Positions 2,946 through 37,170 of a DNA stretch of 64,000 nt are shown here, piece after piece; the first letter of the stretch is position 1; every line of letters begins with the position of its first letter. A model generated the notes under the pieces. That model did not search any database, was not told the DNA's origin, and saw nothing but the letters and a program-made list of their open reading frames with translations. A program made the position numbers and the translations under genes. The DNA lies in assembly GCF_017052655.1 (NCBI RefSeq), contig NZ_JAFIDC010000001.1:186001-250000 (forward strand), read 5' to 3'. The DNA is from Acholeplasma equirhinis (GTDB taxonomy: Bacteria; Bacillota_I; Bacilli_A; Acholeplasmatales; Acholeplasmataceae).

Positions 2946-2976
2946 AAAAAAAGAGATACAGCGTAAACTGTATCTC
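2946..2976 (-). terminator. Rho-independent terminator of the tetR-side/nqr region
   Basis: Stem GAGATACAG (2953-2961) / CTGTATCTC (2968-2976), loop of six, followed on the minus strand by seven Ts (2952-2946). It ends the minus-strand nqr operon just after nqrF and insulates the tetR promoter. Confidence 0.92.
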
Positions 2977-2986
2977 AAATGAGTAA

Positions 2987-4063
2987 TTAGAATTTGTCGA
3001 AGTAGATATGCTCTTCTGGCATACCTTTTTCTTTTAAGACTTTAATACATGCATCAATCATACCAGGTGAACCACAAAGATAAGCTTCATGTCCTGATAG
3101 ATCATCTGTGTGTCTAGAAACAACTTCAGTGATTAATCCAATATCTAAATCCCAGTTATCTTCTGGAAGTGGAGTAGATAATGCAGGGATATATTTAAAG
3201 TTTGGATATTTCTTAGCAATTTCTAAGAAGTATTCAGTATAATATAAATCCTTTTTAGTTCTTGCACCAAAGAAGTAGGTAGCTTTTCTTGGGAAGCCTT
3301 GATCCATTAATTTATAGATAATTGAACGGATTGGTGCCTTACCTGATCCACCTGCAATCATAATGATTGGACGAGTTGATTTTTCTTGTAAGAAGAAGTC
3401 ACCAAACGGACCAGTGATTTTAATATTGTCACCAACCATCATTGCTCTGTGAACAAACTTAGTAGCAACACCACCAGGAACTAATCTAATGATCACTTCT
3501 GGATGATATAAATCTTTTGAGTCCGATGCGATTGAGTAAGCACGAGTTGTTTCAATACCTGGAACTTGGATTTGTAAATATTGTCCAGGTTTAAATGGGA
3601 ATTCTTCCTTCATTTCAAAACGAATACGTTTGATATCATGAGTTAATTGTTCAATCTCAACAACTTTCGCCATGAAAGGTTTAACATTTAAAACAGATTC
3701 TGGGACTTGTACTTCGATATCTTGCGTTACTTTAACTTGGCAAGATAAACGAACACCTTCTTCAATTTCATCTTTTGATAAGAATGGAAGTTCAGTTGGT
3801 TTTGGTGGTTCATGCCAGTCAACGAGTCTGAATTTACATGTTCCACAAGTAGCTTTACCACCACATGATGATGGTAAGAAAATTTTGTTATTTGTTAATG
3901 CATTTAATGCTGTGTCATCACCGGTAATAGTGACAACATTGTTTTTGTTAACAGTGATTTTTCTTTCACCGCCGCCACCTAGAAGTTTATCAACTAAAAT
4001 GACTAAAAGTGTAACGATAATAAGTACACTAATTAAAATAATGGGTGTCCATAGATAATCCAT
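2987..4063 (-). CDS. nqrF: Na+-NQR subunit F, NADH dehydrogenase flavoprotein
   Basis: Electron entry subunit of the NQR complex: oxidises NADH with FAD and passes electrons through a [2Fe-2S] centre. Layout: one N-terminal membrane anchor (residues 5-27), plant-type ferredoxin domain with the cysteine pattern SSCGGKATCGTC plus a distal RLSC, then a ferredoxin-reductase module with the FAD motif RAYSIAS and the NAD motif AGGSGKAPIRS, ending in HIYFDKF. 358 residues against about 400 in Vibrio NqrF. ATG 4063 has a clear AGGAGG site. It is the last gene of the nqrBCDEF operon. The combined ferredoxin/FAD layout is that of NqrF, not of RnfB or RnfC. Confidence 0.95.
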   Translation of the reverse strand: MDYLWTPIILISVLIIVTLLVILVDKLLGGGGERKITVNKNNVVTITGDDTALNALTNNKIFLPSSCGGKATCGTCKFRLVDWHEPPKPTELPFLSKDEIEEGVRLSCQVKVTQDIEVQVPESVLNVKPFMAKVVEIEQLTHDIKRIRFEMKEEFPFKPGQYLQIQVPGIETTRAYSIASDSKDLYHPEVIIRLVPGGVATKFVHRAMMVGDNIKITGPFGDFFLQEKSTRPIIMIAGGSGKAPIRSIIYKLMDQGFPRKATYFFGARTKKDLYYTEYFLEIAKKYPNFKYIPALSTPLPEDNWDLDIGLITEVVSRHTDDLSGHEAYLCGSPGMIDACIKVLKEKGMPEEHIYFDKF

Positions 4064-4072
4064 GATGTCCTC

Positions 4073-4660
4073 CTAGAAGTTAACTCTACCGATACCGGTA
4101 AATCCGATAAACGCTAGAGCTAAGATACCTAAGATTAAGAATGCAATTGCACGGCCTCTTAAACCTTTAGGAATATTTGATACGCGATACATTTTTTGAC
4201 GTACACCAGCAAGTAAGATCATCGCGAGAGTCCAACCAATAGAAGAACCTAAGGCAAATACTGTAGTTTGAGCAAAATCATAATTTCTTGTTTGGAAGAA
4301 AATTGAGACTGCTAAGACGATACAGTTAACTGTAATCAGTGGTAAGAAAATACCAAATGCGTCATAGATTTTTGGAGCTAATTTAGCGAGGAACATTTCT
4401 AAGAATTGTACGAATGTCGCAATAACGATGATGAATACTAATAATGATAATTGAGTCGTACCAGTCGCTTTGAGTAATTCATAAATTGGCCAGTTAATCA
4501 TTGCAGTTGCAGTAACAACAAAGATAACCGCAACACCCATGTTAACTGAGTTTTTAATTGAAGTAGAAATTGCAATTAATGAACACATACCTAAGATGAA
4601 GATCAGAGCGATGTTATTTGAAAGCATTGAAGCTAAGAATAATTCAATAAGTTGTAACAT
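4073..4660 (-). CDS. nqrE: Na+-NQR subunit E, integral membrane
   Basis: One of the two inverted-topology membrane subunits that hold the intramembrane iron centre between NqrD and NqrE. 195 residues, six hydrophobic helices. The two conserved cysteines are present: C26 in LGMCSLIAIS and C113 in VNCIVLAV, both at the positions expected for iron ligands. AGGAGG site before ATG 4660. Gene order D-E-F with short gaps (about 10 bases) indicates one transcript. RnfA is the homologue in RNF complexes, but the neighbouring nqrF makes NqrE the better name. Confidence 0.94.
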   Translation of the reverse strand: MLQLIELFLASMLSNNIALIFILGMCSLIAISTSIKNSVNMGVAVIFVVTATAMINWPIYELLKATGTTQLSLLVFIIVIATFVQFLEMFLAKLAPKIYDAFGIFLPLITVNCIVLAVSIFFQTRNYDFAQTTVFALGSSIGWTLAMILLAGVRQKMYRVSNIPKGLRGRAIAFLILGILALAFIGFTGIGRVNF

Positions 4661-4671
4661 GTTTTTTCCTC

Positions 4672-5328
4672 CTAATCTTCTTCATATTGTCCCATGAGGG
4701 ATCTTAGTAACCAAGCAAACATTGTTAAGACAAAGAATCCGCCTGGTGCAAGTGCCATGATGTTCCAGTTGATCCATTCAGACATGAATGGTGCTTGATA
4801 TCCAAAGAATGTACCAAATGCTAATGGTTCACGTACTGCAGCAATTGCAATTAATACAAATGTATAGCCTAAACCATTTGCTAAACCATCGATTACAGTG
4901 TAATGAACAGGGTTTTTAATTGCAAATGCTTCTGCACGACCCATAACAATACAGTTTGTAATGATTAAGCTTGTATATGCACCTAAGTTGGCTGCGACTG
5001 TTGGTACGTATGCTTGAAGTAGCATTTGTACGACAATCGTGAAGATTGAGATGATAACCATGTAGGCAACCATTCTAACTTTAGGTGGAATTAAGTTTCT
5101 TAAGAGCGATACAATCGCACTTGAAGCCATAATAACGAATGTTACACCAATACCCATGAAAACAGCATTTTCAACACGGTTTGTAACGGCTAATGATGAA
5201 CAGATACCTAAGACTGTTACGACAATTGGGTTTTCTTCAGTTAAACCCTTCTTTAAAATTAAGAACCATTTCTTGTATTGGAGACGTAACCAAGTACTTG
5301 GTTTTTTAGTTGTTTCTTGTTCTTGCAT
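4672..5328 (-). CDS. nqrD: Na+-NQR subunit D, integral membrane
   Basis: Membrane partner of NqrE. 218 residues with a roughly 30-residue cytoplasmic N-terminus and six hydrophobic helices. Iron-ligand cysteines C43 (LGICSSLAVTNRVENA) and C126 (ITNCIVMGRAEAFA) are present. The start ATG overlaps the stop of nqrC by one base (TAATG), so translation is coupled to nqrC. RnfE is the RNF homologue. Confidence 0.94.
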   Translation of the reverse strand: MQEQETTKKPSTWLRLQYKKWFLILKKGLTEENPIVVTVLGICSSLAVTNRVENAVFMGIGVTFVIMASSAIVSLLRNLIPPKVRMVAYMVIISIFTIVVQMLLQAYVPTVAANLGAYTSLIITNCIVMGRAEAFAIKNPVHYTVIDGLANGLGYTFVLIAIAAVREPLAFGTFFGYQAPFMSEWINWNIMALAPGGFFVLTMFAWLLRSLMGQYEED

Positions 5329-7337
5329 TATTCATTACCTCCAAACGCTTCAAAATATTCTGCATAAGCAGCATTCATAGAATCTAAGAATCCGTTTCTA
5401 GTTCCTGTAACACCAGTTAAACCATCAATTAATACTTCACTATCATTTGAAGGTTCAGCAACCATTGTAACTGATGGATTAAACTTAGCTCCAGTGAATA
5501 CAGCTAATACTGAAGGGTCTGTTTGAATCTTAGCTCCACCTTTTTCATTTTGATGGTAAACAGCTACTTTTAAAATTGTTTGAAAATCAGATTCTAATGT
5601 TAATACAGATTTAATAATTGAGAATTGACCTTGACCTTCGAATAAGAAGCTTACTGAACCAGTAGTTTTGTGAACATAAAGTGTTAAGCCACCTTCTGAT
5701 TCAATATTGAATGTTTCATCAAATAAAGATTGATAATTTTCTGAAGTTGATTCAATACCATTGTTTGCAAGCATTGCTTGTTTCATAGGTTGTTCAATAA
5801 ATAATTGATAATAAGCTGCATAAGTCTCATTAATACTGTTTAAGAAACCATTTCTTGTAGAAGTAACACCAGTTAAACCATCGATTACTTCACTGTCATT
5901 TGAAGGTTCAGGGACCATTGAGACAGTTGGATTGAACTTAGCTCCAATGAAAGCCTCTAAAATTGATGGATCTGTTTGAATCTTAGCACCAGCTTTTTCT
6001 GTTTGTTCGTAAACAACAACTTTTTTAATTGTTTGGAAATCTTGTTCTAATGAAAGAACTGATTTGATAGGTCCCCAAGCACCTTGTCCTTCAACTAAGA
6101 AGTTATAAGAGAAGTTTGTCTTGTGGATATAAACTGTTAAATCACCTTTTGTTAATACATTAAATGATGAAGTAAATAAAGTTGCAAAATTATCATTTGT
6201 TGAGTCAATACCATTATTTGATAACATTGCTTGTTTCCAAACCATTGTAGGATCAACTTCAGGTTCTTCAATTTCTTCATCCAAGAAGAATAAAGTATAA
6301 ATTTCAGCTTGAGTTTCGTTTAATCCTTCAGTGAATTTAGATTTAGTTGTCGTTGCAGCAGCAAATCCATCTAAACCTTGGTTATCAGCAGTAGGGTTAG
6401 TTACGAATTCAATTGTAGGATTGAATTTCTTACCAATTAATGAGTCAAGAATTGGACGTTCTGCAACGACTGCACCTTGAACTTCACTATTTGATGTAAC
6501 TGTAATATTCACAATCGTAATAAAGTCATCTTCAAGTGTTAAGATACCAGTAATTGGACCATTTAATCCACCTGTTTCAAAGATGAAACTTACATTACCA
6601 TTTGTTTTATTCTTGTAAATAGTTCTGTCTTGTTTTGTTAAAACATCAAATGTTTCATCAAATAATGAGATATAAGTAGAATTATTAAATGAAACGTTGT
6701 TATGCGAAAGCATAGCTTTCTTCCAAATTGCATCAGGATCAACATCACTAAATGCATAAATGTATTTACGGTAGTTCGCAGTCAATAAGTTACCAAAAGC
6801 GTTTGATGTACCAGTAGCACCAGTAATCGCATCAACTTCATAGTTTTCAACAGCAACACCTTTAATAATTTTGATTTCTAAATCTTCGTTAAATTCTTTT
6901 CCAACAAAGTTGTCTAAGTATTTTCTTTCAGCAACACGACCACCAAGACCAGGAGTTTCAGCTTGTTTTGTTACAGTGATTTTAACAATAGTTTTCCAGT
7001 CTGGTTCGAAAGTTATTACACCTTCAATTGTGTCCCATAAACCCATCCCATAAAAACGGAATGACATTTGGCCTGTTTCATTGTTTGTATATAAAGTTAA
7101 TAATTCTTCAGCATCTTCAGGAGTTGTTGAAACTTCAAATGATGCATCAAAGATCTCTACGAAGTCTGTTTGAGTGTGCGCAATTTCATGATGATCAAGA
7201 ATTGCAGATTTCCAAACAAATTCTGAGTTTTTTGCAATTAATTCATTAGTTAATAAATCTGCTCCCATAAGTACACCGACTGAAACTGTACCCATGATTA
7301 CAACGAATAGAAGCATTGATAAGTATTTCTTCATCAT
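5328..7337 (-). CDS. nqrC: NqrC-like subunit with four tandem FMN-binding domains
   Basis: Extracytoplasmic flavoprotein subunit of NQR. A normal NqrC (about 260 residues) has one membrane anchor and one covalent FMN domain; this one has 669 residues, one N-terminal anchor (MMKKYLSMLLFVVIM region) and four FMN_bind domains (about residues 42-195, 205-350, 367-508, 517-660). Each has the flavinylation-type motif ending in Thr: TGATGT, AAATTT, TGVTST, TGVTGT (Thr 177, 331, 494, 646). Domains 3 and 4 are the most alike, also at DNA level. Start ATG 7337 is chosen over 7355 because GGAGGAAG lies at the right distance and 7355 is inside nqrB. The flavins would be attached by an ApbE transferase, not in this window. 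Four Thr sites are seen; four bound flavins are inferred. Confidence 0.9.
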   Translation of the reverse strand: MMKKYLSMLLFVVIMGTVSVGVLMGADLLTNELIAKNSEFVWKSAILDHHEIAHTQTDFVEIFDASFEVSTTPEDAEELLTLYTNNETGQMSFRFYGMGLWDTIEGVITFEPDWKTIVKITVTKQAETPGLGGRVAERKYLDNFVGKEFNEDLEIKIIKGVAVENYEVDAITGATGTSNAFGNLLTANYRKYIYAFSDVDPDAIWKKAMLSHNNVSFNNSTYISLFDETFDVLTKQDRTIYKNKTNGNVSFIFETGGLNGPITGILTLEDDFITIVNITVTSNSEVQGAVVAERPILDSLIGKKFNPTIEFVTNPTADNQGLDGFAAATTTKSKFTEGLNETQAEIYTLFFLDEEIEEPEVDPTMVWKQAMLSNNGIDSTNDNFATLFTSSFNVLTKGDLTVYIHKTNFSYNFLVEGQGAWGPIKSVLSLEQDFQTIKKVVVYEQTEKAGAKIQTDPSILEAFIGAKFNPTVSMVPEPSNDSEVIDGLTGVTSTRNGFLNSINETYAAYYQLFIEQPMKQAMLANNGIESTSENYQSLFDETFNIESEGGLTLYVHKTTGSVSFLFEGQGQFSIIKSVLTLESDFQTILKVAVYHQNEKGGAKIQTDPSVLAVFTGAKFNPSVTMVAEPSNDSEVLIDGLTGVTGTRNGFLDSMNAAYAEYFEAFGGNE
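5346..6239 (-). repeat. Tandem duplication of FMN-binding domains 3 and 4 in nqrC
   Basis: Two consecutive modules of about 440 bases (5802-6239 and 5346-5789) encode very similar domains: KQAMLSNNGIDST / KQAMLANNGIEST at the beginning, AKIQTDPS, GAKFNP and EPSNDSEV in the middle, and the DGLTGVT motif near the end. The likeness persists in nucleotide sequence, so this looks like the most recent duplication in the gene. Confidence 0.8.
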
Positions 7338-7338
7338 G

Positions 7339-8289
7339 TTATGCTTCCTCCACAACTAAAGGAACATCTTTAACTTTTGGAACTGTCCAAACGTCAATTA
7401 AACCAACAACTGCATTCATGAAAGTAATTGAGTAAATAATACCATCAGTATTTGGAGCAGAAGGGTTAAATAACCAGATGTTTTGAATAATCCAAGTTAC
7501 AAAACCTAATAAGACACCATAAATGAGTCTACCTTTGAAATATAAAGGTTGAGTTTGTGGATCAACTGCAACAAACATAGCTGCAAATAATAAATGACCC
7601 ATAAAGATTGAATATCCTGAATATACGAAAGCATCACCAAATGCAATTCCTTTTGATAAGTAATTGATTAGTGAGAATACAAAATATGTACCTAAGAATG
7701 TTACAGGAATTTTCCAATCAGAGATTTTTAATACCATGAGCAGTAAACCTAAGATAAGAATACCTAATTTAAAGGTTGTTCCTAATCCACCGGCATAATT
7801 TCCAAGGAGTAAGTCCATGAATTGGAATCCTTGAACAATCACACCAGGATTACTCTTAAAGGTTACTGCTGGAGTAACTGTTGTTGCTAATTGTGCAACT
7901 GGATCGAAGAAGTTTAATACATAAACCGGGAAAGAAAGTGCAATAAAGATGAGACCTACTGTCGCAGGGTTAAATACGTTTTTGCCTTCTCCACCCCAAA
8001 TTGCTTTGGCGAAGAATACCCCAAAGCCTGTTGCTACGGCAACCATCCATACTTGATCAATAATGGTTGGTGTTGTAAGTAGCGTTATAATCAATGGTGT
8101 AATCCAGAAAGTTGTCCAGTCAAACTTTTCTTTTCTGGCAACACTATTGAGAAATTCTATAATGAATGATGTCGCGATTGCTACTAAGCCAATAATAAAT
8201 ACGGTTGGTCCAAAGATAAAGGATGCCGCTATTAAAAGCAGAAATAGAGAACTCGCAACAATTATTCTGTTACGTTGTGCAATATTCAT
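7339..8289 (-). CDS. nqrB: Na+-NQR subunit B, membrane flavoprotein
   Basis: Core membrane subunit of NQR/RNF (NqrB/RnfD family). 316 residues, about ten hydrophobic segments, with the family pattern GGEGKNVFNPA (about residue 98). A Thr-Pro motif in LATTVTPAVTF (about residue 136-146) sits where family members carry the covalent FMN Thr. Shorter than Vibrio NqrB (about 410), mainly at the N-terminus, closer to RnfD length. AGAGAGGTAG ribosome site before ATG 8289. It is the first gene of the operon: the expected upstream nqrA is absent, the next gene upstream being a divergent mgtE. Confidence 0.92.
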   Translation of the reverse strand: MNIAQRNRIIVASSLFLLLIAASFIFGPTVFIIGLVAIATSFIIEFLNSVARKEKFDWTTFWITPLIITLLTTPTIIDQVWMVAVATGFGVFFAKAIWGGEGKNVFNPATVGLIFIALSFPVYVLNFFDPVAQLATTVTPAVTFKSNPGVIVQGFQFMDLLLGNYAGGLGTTFKLGILILGLLLMVLKISDWKIPVTFLGTYFVFSLINYLSKGIAFGDAFVYSGYSIFMGHLLFAAMFVAVDPQTQPLYFKGRLIYGVLLGFVTWIIQNIWLFNPSAPNTDGIIYSITFMNAVVGLIDVWTVPKVKDVPLVVEEA

Positions 8290-8761
8290 TTTGTCTACCT
8301 CTCTGTATCGTTATTACTATTCTAACATAAATTTACGCTAAATCTATAAAGATTTACACACAATATTATATATTTTTCTGCTGAAAAAACTGTTTATTTG
8401 ATTTGATATAAAAATCGTGTTATTTTTTGATAAAAAATGTGATGAGAATATATAGAAAATGCATATATATTTTATTTTAGGAACAGCATAAATGCTGTTC
8501 GATTGAATATACACTGCTTAATAGAGTAAATAATAAGATTTTTAAAATTGCAGTATCGACATGCATACACTGTTAGTAATCTTCAATTAGTTTCGAATTT
8601 ATATAATTTTTTCAATAATCAAATTTATGTAAATTCTCTTAAAATTGGGACTAATCAATAAATTAATTTTATTTCTAAAGGAAATGTTATTTTTTAATTT
8701 ATTAATTAAAGATGTTACAATGAAATTGGAGATATTTATTTTTTTATAAAGGGGGTATAAC
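8290..8761. other. Intergenic region between divergent nqrB and mgtE
   Basis: 472 bases, very AT-rich, holding both promoters. A perfect hairpin GAACAGCA-TAAA-TGCTGTTC (8481-8500) stands in the middle without a T-run on either strand, so it is not an obvious terminator. An extended -10 for mgtE is at 8713-8721. No nqrA fragment was recognised. I looked for the conserved core of an M-box Mg2+ riboswitch and did not find one. Confidence 0.7.
8713..8721 (+). promoter_or_regulatory. Extended -10 promoter of the mgtE pair
   Basis: TGTTACAAT, an extended -10 (TGn before TACAAT), 41 bases before the first mgtE ATG, with no clear -35. A strong AAAGGGGG ribosome site follows at about 8749. Confidence 0.6.
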
Positions 8762-10090
8762 ATGCTTAAAACATTACTTGATTCACAAGCGTCAAAAGAA
8801 GAAATACTAAAAGTATTAGAAGATACCCATGCTTATGATCTGGCTAAAATGTTTTCTGAATTATCAGAAGATGAACAGGAGAAAATTTTCTCATTTTTAG
8901 ATAGTGATAAAGTTGCAGAAATTTTAGCATATTTAAACCCGGTCGATGCTGCTGATTTATTTCAAACACTTTCAATTGAAGAACAAAAAGAAGTTGTTGA
9001 AGAATTGGAACCGGATGATGCTGCTGATATTATCAATGAACTTCCTGATGAAGATCGTGTGGAATTAATTAAAGTCTTAGATCAAGATGAAGATGTTTTA
9101 TCTTTAATCAATTATGAAGAATTTACAGCTGGTTCGTATATGACGAACGAGTTTTTGGTTGTAAAAGAATCTGATGATGTTAAAGATGCAACTAAAAAAG
9201 TTATTAAAGATGCAGATTTTGCATCTTCTATACAAACGATATTTGTTGTTGATGACAATAATCATTATGTTGGACAAGTAACACTTAAAGATTTAATTAA
9301 ATCTAGATCACCGAAGGTTATTTCTGAAATTATGGAAATAGAACCTACAGTTTTAGTTACTGATGAAGTTGATACACTGGTTAAACATATGAAACACTAT
9401 GGTGGTTATGACCTTGCTGTATTAGATGAAACAGGTACGCTTTTAGGTGCTATCACAATGGATGATATCTTAGATATCTATAAAGAAGAAGCAATTGAAG
9501 ACTTAGAAAAACTATCAGCTTTACCAGATACAGATTTTAATGAAAATCTATTTAAAAGTGCATTCCATCGTTTGCCTTGGTTAATCATATTAATGTTGTT
9601 ATCACTACCGATTGCATTTGTTACATCTCAGTTTGAGGAAATTCTTGCAAGTGTTGTTATTCTTGCATTATTCCAACCATTAATTCTTGACTCAGGTGGT
9701 GACGTTGCTTCTCAAACACTTGCAGTAACATTAATTTCCTTGACTCAAAAAGATTCTAAACCAGCTAAAAATGGTTTCAAAGAAATTATTTCTGGTATGA
9801 TGTCAGGTTTTGTGATGGGACTACTTGCATTTGTTGCAACTGTCGCAGTGGGATATATCATGGGTCTTGATCATATTTATGCAATTTCGTTTGTTGTTGG
9901 AGGTGCACTCTTTATAACGGTTGCACTCGCACCAATTTTAGGTTTTTTAGTACCGTATATTCTAAAACTCCTTAAATTAGACCCTGCTGTTGCGTCAGGT
10001 CCATTTATTACAACAATGATTGATATTATATCGGTAATTGTATATTTTGGACTTGCAACACTTGTTTTAGGAGGTGTGATTAATGGCTAA
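8762..10090 (+). CDS. mgtE: Magnesium transporter MgtE (paralogue 1)
   Basis: Dimeric Mg2+ channel gated by cytosolic Mg2+. 442 residues: helical MgtE_N domain (1-125), two CBS domains (about 130-250, beginning GSYMTNEFLVV), a plug helix and five membrane helices (about 275-440). Pore motif LILDSGGDVASQT and, in the last helices, PFITTMIDIISVIVYF with the conserved pore Asp. The usual GGN of the pore is GGD here. Its end overlaps paralogue 2 by 8 bases. Confidence 0.93.
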   Translation: MLKTLLDSQASKEEILKVLEDTHAYDLAKMFSELSEDEQEKIFSFLDSDKVAEILAYLNPVDAADLFQTLSIEEQKEVVEELEPDDAADIINELPDEDRVELIKVLDQDEDVLSLINYEEFTAGSYMTNEFLVVKESDDVKDATKKVIKDADFASSIQTIFVVDDNNHYVGQVTLKDLIKSRSPKVISEIMEIEPTVLVTDEVDTLVKHMKHYGGYDLAVLDETGTLLGAITMDDILDIYKEEAIEDLEKLSALPDTDFNENLFKSAFHRLPWLIILMLLSLPIAFVTSQFEEILASVVILALFQPLILDSGGDVASQTLAVTLISLTQKDSKPAKNGFKEIISGMMSGFVMGLLAFVATVAVGYIMGLDHIYAISFVVGGALFITVALAPILGFLVPYILKLLKLDPAVASGPFITTMIDIISVIVYFGLATLVLGGVING

Positions 10091-11405
10091 ATCAATTCGT
10101 TTAACCAATCAAGCACTTAAATTAAAACTATCTAAGATCCATGAATCAGATATTGCAACTATCTTTGAAGAATATCCAAATGACCAACTTAGAATTTTTA
10201 CACTTTTAGGTGTAATGAAATTTTCAGAAGTATTCATACTTCTTGATGAAGATATTCAAAAAGTTTTTTATCAAACATTATCAATTGAACAAAAGAAGTC
10301 ATTATTAAAAGCACTTGAAGTGGATGATTTAAAAACATTCATTGAACTATTCCCAGTTAAAGACCATTTATCAATTCTTAATCTGTTAAGTAAAAATACT
10401 AAACTTGCAGTTGAAAAACTGTTAAGTTACGATGTTGGTTCAGCAGGTTCGATTTCATCACCTCACTTTATTGCATTAACGATTGATACAACTGTCAAAG
10501 AAGCGACTCACTTTGTTACAACTGAATCTACAGAAAAAGATGAAGTTGATGTTATTTTCTTTTATGATGAACATAAAGTGTATAAAGGAGCAATCCGTCT
10601 TCAAGAGTTAATTCTTGCAAGAGCAAACCAAAATTTAAGCAAACTTATTGATGATACATATCCATATGTTCATGAAAATGATGATATGCAAATAGCCTTA
10701 AAAAAGATTCAGGACTATGACCTTGATATGATTCCTGTTTTAAATAAGGAAAAACATATTGTAGGTGTCATTACTGCAGATGATGCTTTAGTCTTAATGG
10801 AAGAATTTCATTTAGATACAGTTGCTGAACTTGTTAAAGTTCATGAAGTCGATGAAGATGATTCTCCATTGAAAAGAACGATTGTTCGATTACCTTGGTT
10901 ATTAATTTCAGCAATATTGAATATTGCGATTGCATCTCTGCTGGCAGTCTTTCAAGGAACGCTTGAAGCACATGTTGCACTGATTTTATTCCAACCTTTA
11001 ATTTTGGGTATGGCAGGTAATATTGGTACACAAAGTATTTCTGTAACGATTTTGGGCTTACATCAAAATCAAATTGAAGCAAAAAAACATATTGGTAAAG
11101 AACTTGCAATTGGTGCAATTAATTCATTAGTTGCTGGACTTGTTGGTATGGGTCTTGTTTATGTATTCTTAATGATCTTACCAAGTCAAACCGATACGAT
11201 GATTGAACTGGCATTAACTGTTGGTATCAGTTTATTCTTTGCAATGTTCATCTCAGCATTAGCTGGGGTCTTATTACCATTTATTTTAAAGAAATTTGGA
11301 GCAGACGAAAAAGCTGCATCTGGACCACTCATTTCAACAATTAATGACTTTACTGCACTAGGGGTTTATTTCTTAGTTGCAACCATCATCTTGATGTTAA
11401 TCTAA
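10083..11405 (+). CDS. mgtE: Magnesium transporter MgtE (paralogue 2)
   Basis: Second MgtE-family channel, 440 residues, same layout: N-domain, CBS pair, five membrane helices with GMAGNIGTQS and PLISTINDFTALGVYF (pore Asp kept). It is clearly diverged from paralogue 1, especially in the N-domain and CBS parts, so the pair is old. The two genes overlap by 8 bases and must be co-translated, which fits a heterodimer, but two separate homodimers are equally possible from sequence. Confidence 0.92.
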   Translation: MAKSIRLTNQALKLKLSKIHESDIATIFEEYPNDQLRIFTLLGVMKFSEVFILLDEDIQKVFYQTLSIEQKKSLLKALEVDDLKTFIELFPVKDHLSILNLLSKNTKLAVEKLLSYDVGSAGSISSPHFIALTIDTTVKEATHFVTTESTEKDEVDVIFFYDEHKVYKGAIRLQELILARANQNLSKLIDDTYPYVHENDDMQIALKKIQDYDLDMIPVLNKEKHIVGVITADDALVLMEEFHLDTVAELVKVHEVDEDDSPLKRTIVRLPWLLISAILNIAIASLLAVFQGTLEAHVALILFQPLILGMAGNIGTQSISVTILGLHQNQIEAKKHIGKELAIGAINSLVAGLVGMGLVYVFLMILPSQTDTMIELALTVGISLFFAMFISALAGVLLPFILKKFGADEKAASGPLISTINDFTALGVYFLVATIILMLI

Positions 11406-35419: not shown

Positions 35420-35526
35420 AAAGTTAAACAACACGATATGACTTAAGGGGATAAAAACAGGTAACATACATAAAAACTATGTATTTTTATTCTATTCATC
35501 AATTTAAAAAACTTGGGGAGGTTTTA

Positions 35527-37170
35527 ATGATGAAATGTATTAAATGCGGATATGAAATGAAGAAGATTTCGACTTTTTGTCCTGATTGTGGATGGGATCA
35601 GAGAAAAGATCCAATTGTAGACGTAAAAAATGATTTCGTGAAAGAACCAATTGAACAATCTATCAAAGAAGAAATTGAAATCATAGAAATAAAACAAGAA
35701 GTGATTGAAACAAAAACTAAACCAATCATGATAAAGAATCAAGATCGTTACCTAATCATTAATCATTTATATGGGTTAAGATTGAATCAATTGATGGTCT
35801 ATGATTTATATAAGCGTCACAAAAAATTTCAATCGATTTTAAACGATGTGTATAGAATCAAAAAACTTCAATTAGAACATAATGTTAAAGTAGCAGGTTT
35901 ATTCAAAGAATTAAAACAAACATATAATAGAGAAATTTTAGATAAAACGACTGATTCTATTTTTCCATCTCATGAGATAAATAATTCCAGTAATTCATTA
36001 AGCAGTGAAAGTGCGTATCAATCACCATTTAAATATAAAGCTCAAAAGAACGTTAAAATCATATCGATTATATTAGCTCTCGTATTGGCATTTATTGGTT
36101 TATTCGTTGCTTTAATTACGTTTGCCTATGTAACGGGTAGAATCAATTCATTTTCATATTTTGAACTCGATCGATATTTAGACAATCCAGATGATCAAAT
36201 GAATATTGTTGGGCAATTTATTATTACTGGTAGTTTGATTTCAATATATATTTTCTATAAAATATTTCAAGCCTTACTTTTGCCTAGGTTATATAAAGGT
36301 GGTGGACATAAAAATTATGGAACTTGGTATTTGAACCTTAGAAGATTTAATCAACAAATGATTGAAAAAAGGTTAAAAACAGATGAAGATTTCCAATTGT
36401 ATCTCATGATAGATATAGAATCTAAAAGAAAAAACTTTTCTAAAGGTAAGAAATATTCAGAAAGTAAAATTAGAAAACTTGCAAAGAAAAACAAACTTGA
36501 GAAGTATCCATATAATTTTGACGCTCAATTCAGTAAGATTATATTAGATTATGAACTAGAGCATGATTTGAAAAGGGTTGTAAAAGATGCTAGGGATGAT
36601 TTAGAAAGCATTAACCAAAAAACAGCTTTAATTTACAGTTTAGAAACTACAATTCTTGATACGATTCAAATTTATAAAACAGAAATTAAAGAGATGTATA
36701 AAAAAATTGAAGATACATATAAAGAAATCCTACATCCAACAGATTGGGAAAGTGTGGATACAATTATCTTCTATCTTGAAACTGGAAGAGCTGAAAATCT
36801 AAAAGAAGCTTTAATTCTTTTACAACACAGACAAAATGCTGAAATGATTGCAGATGTGATACGTCAATCTGCTGAATACATAAGTCAACAGCTTTCAATT
36901 AAAATTAATCAACTAGAAAATAATATTTTAGATGCACTTGAAGAACAACGCGCTTATATTTCAAATCGATTTGATGAAATCGATGGTAGAATAACTGAAA
37001 TGTTTTATGCTTTTTCTTACATTGAACAATCTGTTGAAGAAGCAGGAAGAACAGTTGCTGCCTCAGTACATTCAGCATCTATAGATATTAATCAACATTT
37101 GACACAACTCGCATATTCAAACAGTGAATCATCAAAAGAAATTGTATCAGCTGTTAGATCTGTACAATAA
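35527..37170 (+). CDS. Unrecognised zinc-ribbon membrane protein with coiled-coil tail
   Basis: 547 residues. N-terminal zinc ribbon (two CxxC pairs in MMKCIKCGYEMKK and FCPDCGWD), a polar Glu/Lys-rich linker, then two hydrophobic helices (about 178-203 and 225-250), and a long helical cytoplasmic C-part (about 290-547) rich in coiled-coil pattern (NQLENNILDALEEQRAYI, NRFDEIDGRITEMF). The tail looks like a signalling or scaffold coiled coil, but no domain is recognised. ATG 35527 is preferred because GGGGAGG (35515-35521) precedes it at proper distance. Monocistronic, closed by a strong terminator. Confidence 0.8.
   Translation: MMKCIKCGYEMKKISTFCPDCGWDQRKDPIVDVKNDFVKEPIEQSIKEEIEIIEIKQEVIETKTKPIMIKNQDRYLIINHLYGLRLNQLMVYDLYKRHKKFQSILNDVYRIKKLQLEHNVKVAGLFKELKQTYNREILDKTTDSIFPSHEINNSSNSLSSESAYQSPFKYKAQKNVKIISIILALVLAFIGLFVALITFAYVTGRINSFSYFELDRYLDNPDDQMNIVGQFIITGSLISIYIFYKIFQALLLPRLYKGGGHKNYGTWYLNLRRFNQQMIEKRLKTDEDFQLYLMIDIESKRKNFSKGKKYSESKIRKLAKKNKLEKYPYNFDAQFSKIILDYELEHDLKRVVKDARDDLESINQKTALIYSLETTILDTIQIYKTEIKEMYKKIEDTYKEILHPTDWESVDTIIFYLETGRAENLKEALILLQHRQNAEMIADVIRQSAEYISQQLSIKINQLENNILDALEEQRAYISNRFDEIDGRITEMFYAFSYIEQSVEEAGRTVAASVHSASIDINQHLTQLAYSNSESSKEIVSAVRSVQ

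Follow-up and report, generated by a model that had tools for sequence, protein, structure and literature searches.

Respiration is usually drawn with quinones linking an NADH dehydrogenase to a terminal oxidase. Among the described relatives of the Na+-translocating NADH:quinone oxidoreductase (Na+-NQR), NqrBCDEF complexes that lack nqrA were noted in Pseudothermotoga (PMC4148951), and for the nqrA-less NQR of Clostridium ultunense it has been proposed that FMN is the last carrier and that the acceptor is something other than a quinone (PMC5924567). Izimaplasma ZiA1 has been listed with NqrBCDEF, and Acholeplasma palmae named as a carrier of NQR (PMC6256511). Multi-flavinylated RnfG proteins and one-way NQR/RNF-like systems have also been proposed (PMC8238504, PMC10979944), and for a purified three-FMN protein of this class, which O2 reoxidises, the Em is -184 mV (PMC10339131). 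As for the seat of ion transport, both the NqrD/E [2Fe-2S] cluster, with alternating access, and NqrB/RnfD have been put forward (PMC12174285).

Here we describe an nqr operon of the wall-less bacterium Acholeplasma equirhinis, located in a stretch of 64,000 nucleotides (the window, to which coordinates refer unless stated otherwise) of a 1.45 Mb genome that is 99.75% complete. A sequence-only reading of this DNA had drawn attention to the missing nqrA and to a multi-domain NqrC; it had taken no account of an RNF partner encoded in the same genome, of the decay of the flavin site in NqrB, or of operons in which relatives carry cytochrome bd genes. Taking these together, we consider that the operon probably encodes an outward, Na+-coupled NADH-to-surface-flavin pump that would keep only the outward half of an out-and-back path. 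We found no description in the open-access literature of the reciprocal erosion of NQR and RNF or of the cyd-flavin-nqr operon reported below.

Results

An nqr operon without nqrA

The genes nqrB-C-D-E-F are contiguous, in standard order and all on the minus strand, touching or nearly so, just as the sequence-only reading had it: nqrB (7339..8289, 316 aa), nqrC (5328..7337, 669 aa), nqrD (4672..5328, 218 aa), nqrE (4073..4660, 195 aa) and nqrF (2987..4063, 358 aa), with a terminator-like hairpin and T run on the same strand just past nqrF (2953..2976). Of 160 genomes searched across the order, 55 encode NqrF. Within Acholeplasma it is present in all eight genomes, and the order nqrB-C-D-E-F is seen in each of the seven with an unbroken locus, a pattern beyond chance; genomes within one genus are, to be sure, not independent.

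The neighbor upstream of nqrB is a divergent mgtE (8762-10090), as had been noted, and the 472 bp spacer between them (8290..8761) contains no nqrA. A genome-wide search with PF05896 found no NqrA: the sole match was weak (20.2 bits against a cut-off of 25) and is a biotin-carboxyl-carrier-type protein, which removes the candidate for a hidden NqrA elsewhere in the genome and with it the finding that was to have overturned the earlier reading. The operon does not encode the six subunits, NqrA included, that characterize Na+-NQR. Real as it is, the absence is not peculiar to this operon, since a true NqrA occurs in none of the 160 genomes of the order (all matches fell below the cut-off) and nqrA-less complexes were published earlier for other phyla (PMC4148951, PMC5924567).

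Several features of the surroundings may be recorded. Two different mgtE-type Mg2+ transporter genes stand in tandem, the second at 10083-11405, and an open reading frame of 563 aa (35479-37170) has no Pfam match at an E-value of 1e-6. Close to the operon is a gene for subunit D of the V-type ATPase (33-566), and V-ATPase genes directly adjoin nqrF in several Acholeplasma species (flanks of loci L060, L111 and L112); this proximity is weak evidence for ion-based bioenergetics.

Conserved NqrD, NqrE and NqrF, and a four-domain NqrC

In alignments, Cys43 and Cys126 of NqrD and Cys26 and Cys113 of NqrE (numbered by hand) fall in the [2Fe-2S] ligand columns shared by NQR and RNF, bearing out the iron-ligand cysteines claimed for both subunits, and all four are kept in every aligned NQR. 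NqrF is complete, as claimed, with an N-terminal helix followed by the Fer2 (2Fe-2S), FAD and NAD domains expected of the Na+-NQR subunit, and its Cys67, Cys73, Cys76 and Cys108 are invariant among relatives. Mean pairwise identity among six genomes of the genus is 81% for NqrD, 88% for NqrE and 82% for NqrF, with pairwise values over the genus ranging from 76 to 91%.

Read from the ATG at 7337, NqrC opens with an N-terminal helix, behind which come four FMN_bind domains. A family HMM finds four repeats about 152-163 residues apart; a Pfam scan of the genome (PF04205) gave four FMN_bind matches, all inside NqrC, the RnfG and second FMN-type protein described below being divergent and missed by this first scan; and an AlphaFold model (mean pLDDT 83.5, pTM 0.44) contains four copies of one order of elements, its pTM implying that the relative placement of the domains is not fixed by the model. 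The three agree on the four domains that had been read from the sequence. The best PDB match of the model is the NqrC of Vibrio cholerae, with the Shewanella and V. harveyi NqrC close behind. With its four FMN_bind domains behind an N-terminal helix, NqrC has the layout of the multi-flavinylated extracytosolic proteins, in which several such domains share a single exported chain.

Searching for the motif D-x-x-[TA]-[GA]-[AV]-T, with 669-aa numbering and codon coordinates worked out by hand, we predict a flavinylated threonine in each domain: Thr175 in domain 1 (DAITGAT; minus-strand codon 6813..6815, as for those that follow), Thr329 in domain 2 (DGFAAAT; 6351..6353), Thr492 in domain 3 (DGLTGVT; 5862..5864) and Thr644 in domain 4 (DGLTGVT; 5406..5408). 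The residues had earlier been given as Thr 177, 331, 494 and 646, each two too high. While the claim of a threonine in every flavin site stands, only domain 1 has the motif expected of a covalent FMN site; those of domains 2-4 are not canonical, and flavinylation there is therefore best called probable.

The motif threonine of the extra domains is kept throughout Acholeplasma. NqrC has one FMN_bind domain in most of the order and two, four or five in Acholeplasma, so that the multi-domain NqrC is not unique to this species. The protein reaches 847 aa, with weak extra repeats, in one relative (genome G015) and has 531 aa in another (G147).

An eroded flavin site in NqrB

NqrB lacks about 90 residues of the usual N-terminus, giving it an RnfD-like length. 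Its flavin site reads QLATTVTP in place of D-x-x-[ST]-G-A-T, and GNxPGSxGE appears as GNYAGGLGTT. The covalent FMN site is thus degenerate, a single threonine, Thr139, remaining in alignment with the motif threonine. The motif is degenerate in all Acholeplasma, where its Asp and Gly-Ala are gone, and in other Mollicute genera the whole loop is deleted; the six nqrA-bearing loci have it intact, as do most loci without nqrA in Spirochaetes and Clostridia. This retention by other nqrA-less NQRs counts against an outward pump, as does the want of an acceptor gene beside the operon, and NqrB may still take some part in electron transfer, because the protein is about 70% identical within the genus and has a threonine near the motif.

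The same observations bear on an alternative in which another cytosolic acceptor replaces NqrA and quinone, with electrons returning through NqrB (via riboflavin, perhaps via FMN on Thr139) and the extra NqrC domains merely storing electrons. The maintenance of NqrB, the alignment of Thr139 and the motif kept in Spirochaetes and Clostridia would all suit it, but the loss of the Asp and Gly-Ala, the deleted loop of other Mollicutes and the lack of any acceptor gene adjoining the operon make it improbable. The eroded motif, in a small genome, might instead mark the operon as a decaying relic devoid of electron-transfer function. This we find scarcely credible: the frames are intact, NqrD, NqrE and NqrF are conserved to the degree given above, and NqrC has grown from one to two, four and five domains with its motifs kept.

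Quinone synthesis, flavin attachment and acceptors

Three kinds of gene whose presence or absence the sequence-only reading had thought decisive or worth seeking were followed up. The genome encodes one ApbE, with a lipoprotein-like signal, and so does not show the lack of ApbE that would have told against covalent flavins. The prenyltransferase UbiA is absent from the genome by a search that matched in 14 of 14 control genomes, and a convincing UbiA occurs in only one genome of the whole order; Acholeplasma could nevertheless scavenge quinones. A fumarate-reductase-type flavoprotein, the suggested acceptor, did not materialize, since PF00890 matched only short N-terminal Rossmann stretches in the genome and no full-length FAD_binding_2 protein. 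CydA (PF01654) was not found within the approximately 400 kb of this genome that were examined.

The proposal that NADH electrons are taken up, Na+ pumped and electrons passed along surface flavins to a non-quinone acceptor thus gains from the missing NqrA and UbiA, the ApbE, the retained threonines of the extra NqrC domains and the operons of relatives, and loses the fumarate-reductase-type acceptor.

A companion RNF complex lacking RnfB and the membrane iron-sulfur ligands

About 1.1 Mb from the nqr operon, the same genome carries the RNF locus rnfC-D-G-X-E-A-apbE (C1:1294234-1300675, equivalent to L057:5235-11676), from which RnfB is missing. Typical features of RNF are kept in two subunits: RnfC has a Nuo51-type FMN domain and two 4Fe-4S sites, and RnfD has an intact flavinylation motif (DAAAGATPLS). 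RnfG carries TGATS, and X, the second FMN-type protein after RnfG, carries DGAAGAT in most relatives and DGAAGGT here. RnfB (PF04060) was found in none of the eight Acholeplasma genomes and is absent too from genera g2 and g5, whereas a true RnfC is accompanied by RnfB in nearly every other genome that has one. In the aligned columns, RnfE and RnfA of the RnfB-less genomes (Acholeplasma, g2, g5) have none of the four membrane [2Fe-2S] cysteines left, while every other RNF of the aligned set has all four. Mean pairwise identity among six genomes of the genus is 39% for RnfE, 51% for RnfA and 84% for RnfC.

Each of the eight Acholeplasma genomes shows a reciprocal erosion of the two complexes: RnfB and the cluster cysteines are gone from RNF, which keeps RnfC-D-G, while NQR keeps its cysteines but is without NqrA and a canonical NqrB motif. 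From the motifs retained and lost, NQR holds a path out (NqrF, NqrD/E, NqrC) and RNF a path back (RnfG, RnfD, RnfC). The two could accordingly be halves of a split circuit, in which electrons leave through NqrF, NqrD/E and NqrC, are handed by NqrC to RnfG and the second FMN protein, and are carried back by RnfD and RnfC to an acceptor in the cytosol, the pair acting as a Na+-coupled redox balancer or transhydrogenase. Such a circuit would explain the complementary halves in eight of eight genomes and the retained RnfC and RnfD cofactor sites, and in some relatives cysteine-free RnfE/A-type genes share an operon with nqrBCDEF. It is nevertheless unlikely, as nothing would drive electrons from NADH to NAD+ without the participation of another nucleotide or of ferredoxin, and the two operons lie far apart here. 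Stripped RNF also occurs without NQR (genus g2 and genomes G014 and G016), and genus g14 has NQR without a clear RnfC (in genomes 67-85% complete); since each occurs alone in relatives, the NQR and RNF halves are not obligate partners.

Three other accounts were discarded. The case of g14, incomplete as its genomes are, speaks against RnfC as a substitute for NqrA. A rule that multi-domain NqrC occurs only where RNF has lost its Fe-S half holds in eight of eight assessable genomes with both, and is contradicted by G147, whose 531-aa NqrC stands beside an RNF with the cysteines and RnfB; the association is therefore merely a trend, among relatives that are also not independent. A single loss of the RNF Fe-S half does not agree with the RnfC tree, which requires two changes with moderate support, and long branches leave the RnfE tree unresolved.

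Operons joining cytochrome bd, flavin domains and NQR in relatives

A comparison of nqr loci in relatives, recommended by the sequence-only reading, yielded operon neighborhoods that point to a non-quinone acceptor. In four genomes the genes cydA-cydB-[RnfD/FMN fusion]-rnfE*-rnfA*-nqrB-C-D-E-F lie on one strand, the part directly upstream of nqrBCDEF being at L224:1585-8966 in G037, L070:2002-9813 in G039, L225:874-6732 in G032 and L219:15807-9581 in G083. The RnfD fusion carries one to four FMN_bind domains, the RnfE*/RnfA* proteins are cysteine-free, and UbiA is absent from all four genomes. In genus g9 (L073:4889, L124:3489, L074, L128), a lipoprotein-like protein of amino-acid-binding type and a membrane protein are encoded 3' of nqrF on the same strand.

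By E. coli numbering, the CydA of the cyd-nqr relatives keeps His19, Glu99, Glu107, His186, Lys252 and Glu445, but Glu257 is replaced by Thr or Asn and most of the Q-loop is missing; Met393 could not be confidently placed. Short Q-loops are also present in quinol-using bd oxidases, so that loop length alone is no proof. According to a review, the Q-loop Glu and Lys of bd oxidase are essential for quinol oxidation (PMC8951039), whereas in a 2026 structure Glu257 and the Lys are structural, holding the Q-loop, rather than catalytic (PMC13189123). The placement of cydAB, the RnfD-FMN fusion and cysteine-free RnfE/A ahead of nqrBCDEF suggests a quinone-free chain that would run from NADH through surface flavins to O2.

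Discussion

The mechanism that we infer from gene content, the conservation and loss of ligands and motifs, the absence of NqrA and UbiA and the operon associations makes predictions about flavin occupancy, direction, Na+ coupling and acceptor. NADH would reduce the FAD and 2Fe-2S cluster of NqrF, from which the electron would cross the membrane by way of the NqrD/NqrE [2Fe-2S] cluster and end outside the cell on up to four covalent FMN groups of NqrC, presumably attached by the single ApbE. There would be no return through NqrB and NqrA to quinone. Export of Na+ should be powered by the passage through NqrD/E; of the two proposed seats of ion transport, the NqrD/E [2Fe-2S] is the part conserved here. 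Measured against the -184 mV of the purified three-FMN protein, NADH at -320 mV would leave a drop of about 0.14 V per electron, which could be enough for approximately one Na+ per electron. From the surface flavins of NqrC, electrons may then go to an acceptor outside the cytosol. For some relatives this is probably a cytochrome bd oxidase to which additional flavin domains lead; for Acholeplasma our first guess is that O2 is most likely used directly, with other external acceptors possible. The RNF without RnfB and the membrane [2Fe-2S] would retain the other half of the path, from RnfG through RnfD and RnfC to NAD(H).

The NADH oxidase of Acholeplasma is membrane-bound, and the enzyme purified from A. 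laidlawii in 1981 was reportedly a flavoprotein containing iron-sulfur, its subunits measuring about 65, 40 and 19 kDa, as would suit NqrC, NqrF and NqrD/E. Were that match true, the genes behind an enzyme first studied decades ago would be known. A wider and more tentative picture, which we put forward as possible rather than probable, is that Mollicutes of this order have a quinone-free respiratory chain in which an nqrA-less NQR would pump Na+ and pass electrons through multi-flavin proteins to O2 (in Acholeplasma, as the old NADH oxidase) or to a bd oxidase with a damaged quinol site, with RNF and NQR having shared out the two halves of their ancestral circuit. In organisms that give no hint of making quinones, a predicted pump and surface flavins stand together, joined in relatives by a terminal oxidase. 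The RNF/NQR machine also appears here in naturally dissected form, one complex holding only the Fe-S half and the other only the flavin half, so that which half pumps ions becomes testable in cultivable Acholeplasma.

Compared with Na+-NQR of the Vibrio cholerae type (NqrABCDEF), the operon shares the B-C-D-E-F order, an NqrF with FAD and 2Fe-2S, the four NqrD/E ligands, the motif of NqrC domain 1 and a genomic ApbE; it differs in having no NqrA, no UbiA, an NqrB without the N-terminal extension or canonical flavin motif, and a four-domain NqrC. With the nqrA-less NqrBCDEF of Pseudothermotoga, Clostridium ultunense and Izimaplasma ZiA1 it has in common the five genes and the lack of nqrA, but a multi-domain NqrC, an eroded NqrB motif and a stripped RNF are undescribed there (PMC4148951, PMC5924567, PMC6256511).

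Tandem FMN_bind domains outside the membrane, as proposed carriers to external acceptors, are shared with multi-flavinylated RnfG and free multi-FMN proteins (PMC8238504, PMC10339131), although in the present operon it is the NqrC of an NQR that carries them. The one-way systems akin to NQR and RNF (PMC8238504, PMC10979944) resemble this one in that electrons are proposed to run in a single direction, from NAD(P)H to an FMN domain on the outside, and in that the NqrB-type site is without the flavinylated Thr motif. They consist of two genes, with NqrB fused to an NAD domain and no D/E Fe-S pair, whereas here NqrB is a PF03116-only protein, NqrF is separate and the Fe-S pair would be the path. 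Finally, the companion locus matches RNF (RnfCDGEAB) in having rnfC, D, G, E, A and apbE in order, and departs from it in the loss of RnfB and of all four [2Fe-2S] cysteines and in the extra FMN-type protein that follows RnfG.
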